NCBI RefSeq assembly: GCF_002067135.1
Contig: NZ_CP020105.1
Coordinates: 4,216,001-4,280,000 of the forward strand
Length of the DNA stretch: 64,000 bases
From: Spirosoma rigui
GTDB taxonomy: Bacteria > Bacteroidota > Bacteroidia > Cytophagales > Spirosomataceae
Direction: 5' to 3'
Position numbers and translations under genes: made by a program
Notes under the pieces: generated by a model
Seen by the model: the letters and a program-made list of their open reading frames with translations, nothing else
What the model was told of the DNA's origin: nothing
Databases searched by the model: none
Part shown: piece after piece, positions 5,671-45,332 of the stretch
Position numbering within the stretch: position 1 is the first letter of the stretch
Layout: each line of letters begins with the position of its first letter

Positions 5671-6049
5671 GCAAATTGCGGTCATTGCCAACAGCTACCG
5701 CACAATGGCCCGCGCGCTGAATGAGTTTCAGGTACTGCGCTGGTCCGAATTCTCGCATGAGCAGCAATTGGATCTGAATGCCTACCAAAATAGTCTGCTC
5801 AACCGCGCGCAGGATCTGCAAACGATGGCGGTACGCCCGGCTTTCAAAAATACGGCTGAAATGACCAAAGGAATCCTGCAGGCAACGGAGTACGCTACCG
5901 ACAGTTTAAAACACATCCGGAATGTGACGCTGGCCCTGAACGTGGGGGCCATCACTGTAGCATTAGCCTCCTACGTTGCCCGGGCTAATTTACGCGGTAT
6001 CGAGACCGCCCTGCGCGAACTCGGTGACCTGCTGGTTACGGAAGAATAA
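5651..6049 (+). CDS. Hypothetical membrane-anchored protein
   Basis: 132 residues from the ATG at 5651, inside the end of the lipoprotein gene. The protein is mainly helical with one hydrophobic stretch (VTLALNVGAITVALASYVA, about residues 95-113) near the C-terminus. No family is recognised. The 20-base overlap with the upstream lipoprotein gene suggests the two products work together at the envelope, one on the outer membrane or periplasmic side and one anchored by its helix (inference). Confidence 0.65.
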   Translation: MEDFTPEQIAVIANSYRTMARALNEFQVLRWSEFSHEQQLDLNAYQNSLLNRAQDLQTMAVRPAFKNTAEMTKGILQATEYATDSLKHIRNVTLALNVGAITVALASYVARANLRGIETALRELGDLLVTEE

Positions 6050-6052
6050 TGT

Positions 6053-6150
6053 AGAAAAGAAAGCGGGGGACTCGGGGAAAGAAAGGGAACAGCGGCTTTA
6101 CTGAGCCTGTTTCTCCCTTTCTTTCTCCGCGTCCCCCGCCTTCTTTTCTC
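6053..6150. terminator. Long imperfect hairpin between convergent genes
   Basis: The segment starting at 6053 (GAAAAGAAAGCGGGGGAC) is nearly the reverse complement of the segment ending near 6150 (GTCCCCCGCCTTCTTTTC). The arms are over 35 bases with about three mismatches, and the loop is about 20 bases. It fills the whole gap between the ends of the membrane-protein gene and the FKBP gene. Confidence 0.65.
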
Positions 6151-6156
6151 CTTTTT

Positions 6157-6609
6157 TTACAATATCAACCCCGAGGGTGATTTTACGCCGACGAGTTCTA
6201 CTTCGAATACCAAGTCCTGCCCGGCCAGTGGGTGATTGGCGTCGAGTGTAACATTTGTTTCGGTCAGGTCACGAACAATAACCGGAATGGGCCGTGGGTT
6301 ACCGTCTTCGTGCATGTTAAGGGTCATCCCCATTTCGAGCGGAATATCGTTGGGAATATCGGTACGGTTCAGCGTGAAGATCATTTCCTCATTGGCTGGC
6401 CCGTAGGCGTCTTCAACCGGAATATTGATGGTTTTCTTTTCGCCCTGGTTCATCCCGGCAACGCCCTCGTCAAAGCCTTTGATGACCTGACCGCTGCCAA
6501 CGGTAAATTCTAATGGTGTGCGACCGGCCGATGAATCAAATACGGTTCCGTCGCTCAGGGTGCCGGTATAATGCACCTGAACGGTGTCGCCGGATTTTGC
6601 TTGTGCCAT
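6157..6609 (-). CDS. FKBP-type peptidyl-prolyl isomerase, SlyD-like
   Basis: 150 residues. The FKBP core starts at VQVHYTGTLSDGTVFDSS and continues through GQVIKGFDEGVAGMNQGEKK. The insert-in-flap region (PVEDAYGP...through VIVRDLTETNVTLDANHPLAG) is the chaperone domain typical of SlyD-type FKBPs. Unlike E. coli SlyD there is no His/Cys-rich metal-binding tail; the protein ends in SPSGLIL. It catalyses proline isomerisation and assists folding, probably in the cytoplasm since no signal peptide is seen. The start ATG is at 6609. The gene stands between a convergent hairpin and a co-directional thioredoxin-like gene. Confidence 0.92.
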   Translation of the reverse strand: MAQAKSGDTVQVHYTGTLSDGTVFDSSAGRTPLEFTVGSGQVIKGFDEGVAGMNQGEKKTINIPVEDAYGPANEEMIFTLNRTDIPNDIPLEMGMTLNMHEDGNPRPIPVIVRDLTETNVTLDANHPLAGQDLVFEVELVGVKSPSGLIL

Positions 6610-13358: not shown

Positions 13359-13366
13359 AAAAAATA

Positions 13367-13443
13367 GGAGGGGTAACCAGAAGAGAAGGGGCTGACGCTA
13401 TAGCAAAAAACGCGTCAGCCCCTTCTCTTCTGGTTACCCCTCC
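13367..13443. terminator. 32-bp perfect hairpin between convergent genes
   Basis: The arms 13367-13398 and 13412-13443 are exact complements with a 13-base loop (13399-13411). A run of A before and TTTTG after the stem give U tracts in both directions, so it should end both the barrel gene and aroK. Confidence 0.85.
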
Positions 13444-13459
13444 CCTTTTGCGCCCTTTA

Positions 13460-24301: not shown

Positions 24302-24370
24302 CCGTAAAATAAGACCCGAAAAAGCCCAACTGGTTAAATTAGTTGGGCTTTTTCGGGTCTTATTTTACGG
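24302..24370. terminator. 30-bp perfect hairpin ending gltD and ridA
   Basis: Arms 24302-24331 and 24341-24370 are exact complements with a 9-base loop, and AAAAAG/CTTTTT runs lie inside the stem. The stop codon of the convergent RidA gene (24360) is inside the right arm. Confidence 0.85.
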
Positions 24371-27400: not shown

Positions 27401-27471
27401 CCGGTATATCTTTTAACGACGAAGGGGAATCAGTAGCACTGGTTCCCCTTCGTCGTTAAAAGATATACCGG
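27401..27471. terminator. 29-bp perfect hairpin between convergent genes
   Basis: Arms 27401-27429 and 27443-27471 are exact complements around a 13-base loop. The stop codon and last codons of the radical SAM gene (stop at 27456) lie in the right arm. Confidence 0.8.
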
Positions 27472-43155: not shown

Positions 43156-43246
43156 GCAAAAAGCCCGGATCACGTAACGTAGTCCGGGCTTTTTTGCAAT
43201 GAACGAATGCCATATCTCCAAGATATGGCATTCGTTCATTGCAAAA
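43156..43246 (+). terminator. Two tandem hairpins after the DUF2723 gene
   Basis: The first (43156-43195) has AAGCCCGGA and TCCGGGCTT arms with a T run. The second (43192-43246) is a perfect 26-bp stem with a 3-base loop (43218-43220). They share a few bases, so only one may form fully at a time. Confidence 0.75.
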
Positions 43247-43480
43247 CCCAGGGTTCTACCCGCAAACTCATTTACTGGCGTGCGGCTTCTTTAGCTGTTG
43301 CCAATTGAAACACACACGTGGTTCACAGCTGCTGGCTATTTATTCCCCGACGGACACGTCCGGGTGTAAATTGACCATGATTTCACGCCCCGACGTATCC
43401 GTCCGGGAGACGGTACCCCATAAAACGAAACAGCCCCAATCCGTAGGGACTGAGGCTGCTTAAGGAAATATCAGATTAGA
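43247..43480. other. Remainder of the gap before dnaJ
   Basis: No supported gene. It contains two similar 22-base motifs, CCCCGACGGACACGTCCGGG at 43345 and CCCCGACGTATCCGTCCGGG at 43388, and the dnaJ terminator at 43431-43458. Confidence 0.5.
43431..43458 (-). terminator. Terminator of dnaJ
   Basis: CAGCCCCAATCC and GGGACTGAGGCTG form a stem with small mismatches; on the minus strand it is followed by TTTCGTTTTAT. It lies 22 bases past the dnaJ stop. Confidence 0.6.
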
Positions 43481-44650
43481 TCAACCATGAAAAAAATCTT
43501 TCATCTTGTCGAAAAACCCTTTTTCGTTCTTATTCGGTTTTGGCTGGAAGTTCGGCGAGTTGCGCAGCTTTTCGAGTATGCTGCGTTCCTCCGACGATAG
43601 CATCTTAGGCGTCCAGACGTTGACATGAACGATCTGATCGCCCCGTCCGTAGCCGTTCAGTTCCTTGATGCCTTTTCCTTTCAGGCGCAGCATTTTACCG
43701 CTTTGCGTACCAGGCTCGAGGGTGATCCGGGCCTTACCATCGATGGTGGGTACCTCCACACTCGTGCCAATGGCGGCATCGACGAAGTTGACATAGAGGT
43801 CAAACACGACATTGCTGCCGTCCCGCTTCAGGTCGGCGTCTTCCTCTTCCTCCACCACAATGAGCAGGTCGCCCGCAACACCACCCCGTGGGGGAACATT
43901 ACCTTTGCCACCTACCGACAGTTGAATGCCTTCGGAGACACCCGCCGGGATTTTGATGGGAATAACGTCTTCCTGCAGAACCCGCCCTTCGCCGAAACAA
44001 ACGTCGCAGCGGTCGGTCACGAGTTTGCCTTCGCCGTTACAGGTTGGGCAGGTGCTGGTCGATACCATCTGGCCCAGCATGGTGTTGACAACCTTACGCG
44101 TTTGTCCACTACCGTTACAGGTGGAACAGGTTTGTACGGCGGTTCCGTTCTTGGAGCCGTTACCCCCGCAGGTCGTACACGATACGTGCCGTTTTACCTT
44201 AATTTTCTTCTCAACGCCGTTGGCAATTTCCTGAAGGTTAAGCTTCAGCTTGATGCGCAGATCGGAACCGCGACGAACGCGCTGCCGCTGGCCACCGCCC
44301 CCCTGCGAACCACGGAAGAAGCTGCCAAACGGTGAATCATCGCCGAAGACATCGCCAAACTGACTAAAGATGTCTTCCATCGAAGGACCACCCGGGCCGT
44401 AGCCACCACCACCGGCGGCTCCACCCATTCCCGCATGACCAAATTGATCGTAGCGGGCTTTTTTATTGGGGTCGTTCAGGACATCATAGGCCTCAGCGGC
44501 TTCCTTAAACTTCTCCTCGGCGGTGGGATCGTCGGGGTTTTTATCCGGGTGGAACTTGATGGCCATTTTGCGATAGGCCTTTTTCAGATCCTCCGGCGAT
44601 ACGTTCTTATCGACGCCTAATATTTCGTAATAATCGCGCTTCGTTGCCAT
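43481..44650 (-). CDS. dnaJ: Chaperone protein DnaJ
   Basis: 389 residues, ATG at 44650. It stimulates the DnaK ATPase and delivers unfolded proteins. The J domain carries HPD near residue 33 ([10 protein letters not shown]). A Gly/Phe-rich linker (72-115) follows, then four zinc-binding repeats [24 protein letters not shown] and CDVCFGEG, and two C-terminal beta domains. It is the second gene after grpE; the whole gap between them is a 21-bp hairpin. Confidence 0.97.
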
Positions 44651-44658
44651 GTAAAGGT

Positions 44659-44708
44659 ATGAATGACATCTGGTTGATACTGTTCATTATCAACCAGATG
44701 TCATTCAT
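44659..44708 (-). promoter_or_regulatory. 21-bp hairpin filling the grpE-dnaJ gap
   Basis: Arms 44659-44679 and 44688-44708 are exact complements with an 8-base loop. On the transcript the hairpin starts 3 bases after the grpE stop and ends 8 bases before the dnaJ ATG. There is no T run after it, so it is not a classical terminator; it may set relative levels or act as a processing or attenuation site. Confidence 0.6.
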
Positions 44709-44711
44709 TTT

Positions 44712-45332
44712 TTAGCTTCCTACAATCACTTTTGCGAACCGAATGACCTTGTCATTCAGGTAATATCCTTTTTCTATTTCGTCAATGACTTTGCCCTTGA
44801 GGTCGTCGCTCGGGGCCGGAAACTGGGTCACCGACTCGTGCAGATCGGCGTTGAAAGGCTCTCCTTTGGCCACCATGGGCTTTAGCCCTTTGCCTTCCAG
44901 CGTCTTGAACAGTTTGGTGTAGATGAGCGAGACACCTTCTTTAAGGGCCGTCACATCATTGGTGTTCTCGATCGACTGCATAGCCCGCTCAAAGTCGTCC
45001 ACGACGGGAATAAGTGCCTGCAGCACCCCTTCGTTCGCGTTGCTGATAAGGTCGAGCTTTTCCTTGGCGGTACGCCGGCGGAAATTTTCGAAGTCAGCAT
45101 AGAGACGCAAGTATTTGTCTTTGAGTTCCGCGACTTCCCGGCTGGCTTTTTCGGCTGCAGATTCCTGAGGAGCTGATTCAGCGGCTGCATCGGTTGGTTC
45201 GCCACCGTTAACGGTCACAGCTTCCTCGGTTGTCAATTCAGTATGTTCGGCCGATGCCGTTTCAGCGGTCAGGTTGTCAGGCTGTTGGGTATCAGTGGAC
45301 TGTTTTTCGTCCATTGTGTCTTTATTTTCCAT
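44712..45332 (-). CDS. grpE: Nucleotide exchange factor GrpE
   Basis: 206 residues from the ATG at 45332. The open frame reaches 45419, but that N-terminus is not protein-like. GrpE releases ADP from DnaK. An acidic, Gln/Thr/Glu-rich N-terminal tail (1-70) leads into the long coiled coil ([20 protein letters not shown] near 72-91) and the C-terminal beta domain ([36 protein letters not shown]). First gene of the grpE-dnaJ operon. It is divergent from queG. Confidence 0.95.

Follow-up and report, generated by a model that had tools for sequence, protein, structure and literature searches.

The window analysed here is a 64,000-nucleotide stretch of the Spirosoma rigui genome, which is a single contig of 5.83 Mb. 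On its minus strand, grpE (44712..45332, an open reading frame with an ATG start and its stop codon at 44712-44714) is the cistron upstream of dnaJ (43481..44650, ATG at 44650). The dnaJ frame exceeded the cut-off of the TIGR02349 model, and for the grpE product GrpE models were the sole matches among the 25 families shown, all of them under the curated cut-offs. Between the two cistrons is a gap of 61 nt (44651-44711). Read along the coding strand, it consists of 3 nt that separate the grpE stop from the stem, a 21-nt 5' arm (44688..44708), an 8-nt loop (44680..44687), a 21-nt 3' arm that is the full complement of the 5' arm (44659..44679) and an 8-nt unpaired leader that runs from the stem to the dnaJ ATG (44651..44658), all on the minus strand. 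The hairpin occupies 50 of the 61 bases, and 21 of its 21 base pairs are Watson-Crick. The first-pass annotation had described a gap-filling hairpin with a 21-bp stem and an 8-base loop that stops 8 bases from the dnaJ ATG, and we confirmed both its coordinates and its pairing. When 161 nt around the hairpin were folded as RNA, the z score was -7.0 and none of 200 shuffles folded equally well, indicating that the perfect grpE-dnaJ stem is far from chance.

The same annotation had noted that no T tract follows the stem, and this is correct for the coding strand, where none was found 3' of the stem. The antisense strand does have a run of five T beyond the stem (44709..44713, plus strand), which was scored as terminator-like by consensus in the terminator scan. 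This run is mainly the A-rich stretch downstream of the grpE stop, and it is not conserved, with at least five A in the 8 nt preceding the stem in 5 of the 45 hairpin-bearing gaps described below.

The grpE-dnaJ gap in related genomes

We assembled a close set of 49 distinct grpE-dnaJ gaps with a dnaJ identity of at least 82%. Gaps of relatives below 82% were excluded, L046 was removed as a duplicate (the same gap as L034), and five genomes of the genus were left out, G024-G026 because no dnaJ matched at the limit and G019 and G032 because their dnaJ was partial. The dnaJ genes of Fibrisoma montanum and Spirosoma telluris are 92% identical to that of the window. We found a stem with a score of at least 12 in 45 of the 49 gaps and one of at least 18 in 36. 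Gaps with a hairpin have a mean length of 93 nt, of which the hairpin makes up 82% on average, and the four hairpin-free gaps measure 9, 21, 22 and 25 nt. Within the window's genus, the hairpin was present in all 31 genomes with a full gap sequence (L003-L032, L035); the S. telluris record of the named collection has a 25-nt grpE-dnaJ gap and no hairpin. The stem begins at most 7 nt after the stop codon in 35 of the 45 gaps and ends 6-12 nt upstream of the ATG in 36, and arm length is 17-46 in 42 gaps. These results show that nearly all close relatives carry the hairpin in this gap and that it fills the gap nearly edge to edge. That four relatives do without it argues that it is not essential.

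Among farther relatives, a stem of at least 20 bp was predicted in 16 of the 75 named-collection loci with an adjacent grpE, two of these 16 (L046 and L047) also being in the close set, and in 42 of the 75 the gap was at most 45 nt long without a stem of 12. The 25-nt gap of S. telluris (L058) looks like one arm out of a family of stems found elsewhere in the genus, as if the remainder of the hairpin had been deleted.

We then compared the arms themselves. In 42 hairpins, the identity of an arm to its own partner arm was 0.93, compared with 0.56 to arms from other genomes. Twelve of the 45 gaps, hand-picked as alignable, made up the covariation set; in these, 97.6% of 420 cells were paired, 12 of 36 pairs were altered on both sides, and there were 32 double-sided cells against 6 one-sided ones. 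The first-pass annotation had looked to compensating changes in relatives as the check on its hairpin, and these were found in strength: none of 500 shuffles reached any of the five measures of covariation, and slid controls collapsed. Eight same-register pairs gave 20 double Watson-Crick changes against 7 one-sided changes. Contrary to this, a broad close-pair tally over 59 alignable stems, which mixes many weak or genic stems and repeated species pairs, gave 212 one-sided against 57 double Watson-Crick changes; because of this mixture, our reading does not rest on it. Together, the comparisons within the grpE-dnaJ gap showed that the arms change together as the sequence turns over, and homogenised arms with double-sided changes are the pattern by which a template-switch hairpin is recognised.

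The loops were compared as well. L027 and L030 (from genomes G021 and G001) have stems that differ at one base pair and loops that are reverse-complemented relative to each other, with 11 of 12 positions matching in this orientation compared with 4 of 12 in direct orientation. This inversion is the only clear case in 224 loop pairs, and it constitutes moderate evidence on its own because 42 of 200,000 shuffles do as well. In addition, L013 and L026 have a common 13-nt loop word in opposite orientation.

Long stems across the genome

Sixty tiles of the window's own genome (1.2 Mb, about one-fifth) were sampled, with genes called by our own hexamer-based method. This sample contained 118 stems with a score of at least 15, none of them mainly within called genes, and an A-C-swapped control gave 0 hairpins in 1.2 Mb. 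Of these stems, 56 lay in convergent gaps (4.4 per kb), another 56 in tandem gaps (0.57 per kb, at a median of 16.5 nt past the stop) and 4 in divergent gaps (0.10 per kb). Extrapolated from the sample, the genome carries hundreds of long stems just downstream of stop codons. Two congeners were richer, with 103 and 72 stems per 0.4 Mb, and a more distant family member, probably a Dyadobacter by its dnaJ identity, had 15 per 0.4 Mb and none of score 30. Stems with a score of at least 12 were also found in the gldL-gldM gap, before gldM, in 22 of 30 cases and in the gap before atpC in 20 of 30, and in both gaps the stem sequences vary by species. Because similar hairpins follow stop codons genome-wide, and the same type fills the gaps before gldM and atpC, the hairpin is not heat-shock-specific, and a heat-shock-specific form of the structure-based switch that the first-pass annotation had considered is not supported.

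In the portion available of Petrillo et al. 2006 (PMC1590033), bacterial 3'-end intergenic stem-loops lie after stop codons, in excess in convergent gaps and depleted in divergent ones. The Spirosoma stems share this placement and gap-type bias; unlike those stem-loops, they are longer, near-perfect and mostly without a T tract, and the stem at dnaJ fills a gap between cistrons while its sequence turns over fast. That portion of the paper does not name Spirosoma. A literature search by lineage names found no passage on Spirosoma hairpins, by which we do not claim their absence from print.

The convergent gaps of the window hold long stems with arms of 30-44 bp (6045-6157, 13361-13449, 24302-24370 and 27401-27471), and the 5' arm of the stem at 6045-6157 is purine-rich. 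The word GGCTGACGC recurs near hairpin apices, in the stem at 13361-13449, in the L017, L026 and L038 gaps and in the tiles of G008 and G022. In the tiles of G000, G008 and G022, 14 of its 17 intergenic copies were in detected hairpins; the tiles of G161 had no intergenic copy.

Strand asymmetry of mismatches

If pairing were selected at the mRNA level, G-U mismatches on the transcribed strand should exceed A-C mismatches. The short T-tailed terminators of the same four genomes, used as the control, behaved in this way (G-T 72, A-C 21); a 50-kb piece of E. coli DNA yielded only 6 control terminators and was therefore not pooled with them. Long tandem stems from three genomes gave 196 G-T and 180 A-C, and the dnaJ gaps (here 44 gaps with an identity above 84%) gave 28 and 24. 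Fisher tests against the terminator control gave 7e-6 for the long tandem stems and 0.005 for the dnaJ gaps, on counts that come from related species and are not independent. The excess of G-U over A-C on the transcribed strand that marks a selected RNA structure was therefore seen neither in the long stems nor in the dnaJ gaps. Contrary to this, a strict scan of the dnaJ gaps leaned to G-T (19 against 10), and the gldL-gldM stems (L267-L296) had an RNA-type wobble, with G-T 43 and A-C 11, suggesting that the structure in this gap may indeed be selected as RNA. The stems of the atpC gap (G-T 16, A-C 23) showed no RNA-type pattern. In these counts, too, related species are not independent.

We also found that, in the window's own genome, pairing runs past the terminator T run in 8 of the 28 convergent cases counted by strand, compared with 0 in a shifted control, which also points to a DNA-level process. 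Compensatory changes usually count as proof of a selected RNA structure; here they are abundant, yet the strand test is flat, and this test has a positive control within the same genomes. Because the long stems lack a wobble excess on the sense strand, compensatory changes alone are no proof of RNA-level selection. Collectively, these data support that pairing is renewed at the DNA level, and not by mRNA selection on each base pair.

According to the available portions of two papers, arms become homogenised and spacers inverted through template switching in yeast (PMC8604942), and template switching is proposed to both create and maintain RNA hairpins (PMC8794818). The hairpins studied here resemble such template-switch or quasipalindrome hairpins in their arm homogenisation, double-sided changes and perfect long stems, and one or two species pairs may also share the spacer inversion. 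Whereas those portions deal with RNA genes and yeast coding DNA, here an operon gap is kept genus-wide through near-complete sequence replacement, and a strand wobble test is set against terminators.

Possible roles and competing explanations

We give about an even chance to the reading that the hairpin is an intercistronic RNA element of the grpE-dnaJ mRNA, kept for its use and renewed by template switching. One arm would template the other during replication, by template switching or quasipalindrome correction, so that near-perfect pairing is renewed in the DNA, and the hairpin would be retained because it is useful in the mRNA. Its presence in 45 of 49 gaps and its steady spacing to the ATG argue for use. 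The likeliest use would be as a double-stranded processing or exonuclease-stop element. RNase III acts on RNA duplexes from about 20 bp upwards. An RNase III gene is present in the genome, the 21-bp stem has the length of a substrate, and a perfect stem of at least 21 bp would be a natural one, with RNase III cleavage as the presumed step. Such an element would separate the grpE and dnaJ messages and protect the 3' end of grpE. Chaperone mRNAs are cleaved at intercistronic stem-loops in the groESL operon of Agrobacterium and the dnaK operon of Bacillus. Like these, the hairpin lies between heat-shock cistrons and is a putative processing site; unlike them, its type extends beyond chaperone operons. 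Our search of the literature on intercistronic chaperone hairpins found nothing usable.

The hairpin would also leave a short unpaired leader for dnaJ, insulating its start. According to the available part of PMC6847099, translation in Bacteroidetes does not begin by Shine-Dalgarno pairing, and initiation is tuned by structure close to the start. Thus, a stem that ends 8 nt upstream probably lowers dnaJ initiation, and with it the translation of dnaJ compared with that of grpE. A processing site between the two cistrons and a lowering of dnaJ expression are both plausible as candidate roles.

More tentatively, and with confidence well short of even, we propose that the function needs shape and position only: template switching during replication would rewrite the sequence from arm to arm, and the structure would be inherited across the genus without conserved sequence. 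If this is true, structure conservation can be inherited through mutation, and elements of this kind, having no conserved sequence, would escape RNA searches based on homology. These genomes would then offer a natural setting in which to test template switching and the effect of intercistronic double-stranded RNA in operons without Shine-Dalgarno signals.

The main rival to a useful element is a mutational by-product, in which template switching makes and self-repairs harmless palindromes and the dnaJ hairpin, functionless, persists by self-mending; we consider this possible rather than probable. It is consistent with the flat wobble test of the long stems, with the same pattern in unrelated operons, with the lack of the hairpin in four relatives, and with the absence of stems from coding regions and their rarity in divergent gaps, where harm is expected. 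However, unused inserts are expected to be deleted often, and this would be expected for a useless insert of 60-100 nt, yet 45 of 49 gaps retain the hairpin and the spacing to the ATG is held to 6-12 nt in 36 of 45. Loss of SbcD, a subunit of a palindrome-cleaving nuclease, was rejected as the reason why palindromes are tolerated, as the hairpin was found both with and without an SbcD match over the cut-off. SbcD is over the cut-off in the window's genome; several congeners (for example G001, G004, G023 and G031) have no match over the cut-off, and all of these have the dnaJ hairpin.

It is unlikely that the hairpin belongs to a dispersed family of palindromic repeats, REP- or MITE-like, whose copies land after genes and replace one another over time. 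Like REP and other extragenic palindromes, the stems lie outside and after genes, and in two congeners many arms fall into families (38 of 96 hairpins in one and 22 of 66 in the other were not singletons); a single 15-base arm word has between 0 and 41 copies in each genome of the genus, compared with 0-1 for its reversed control, and the apical word recurs as described above. Unlike REP, which occurs in many similar copies, the hairpin is single-copy in the window's genome, with no further copy there and none in the plasmid collection; of the 117 hairpins sampled from this genome, 115 were singletons. Moreover, it fits the edges of the gap, and no target-site or flank remnants were seen.

Still less credible is a role in terminating or attenuating transcription between the two cistrons. 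The strong stem right past the grpE stop is in the usual position for a terminator, and the antisense strand scored as terminator-like. However, just 1 of the 45 gaps has five or more T within 8 nt past the stem on the coding strand, G-C pairs are few (7 of the 20 pairs counted in the terminator scan), and only 8 nt downstream of the stem are left for a dnaJ promoter. With no U tract and no room for that promoter, a terminator is unlikely, and we rejected assignment to the canonical intrinsic (Rho-independent) class on the G-C content and the T-rich tail.

An RNA thermometer or heat-operated switch controlling dnaJ can be set aside almost entirely: the genes are heat-shock genes and the structure adjoins the start codon, but the stem stops 8 nt before the ATG and leaves the start codon free, whereas thermometers of the ROSE or FourU type pair the start codon or ribosome site. 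Moreover, the fold energies suggest that perfect stems 21-46 bp long would stay closed at growth temperatures, and the same element type lies upstream of atpC and gldM. At gathering score, Rfam matched nothing in the whole window but two tRNAs. A permissive scan gave 34 sub-gathering Rfam matches to the gap, led by microRNA models, which we judged spurious because any perfect hairpin resembles such models.

The 3' side of dnaJ carries three crowded stems (43158-43408). The first (43158-43194) is terminator-like, with 18 bp and A/T flanks, the second (43192-43246) is perfect over 26 bp, and the third (43344-43408) is weaker.
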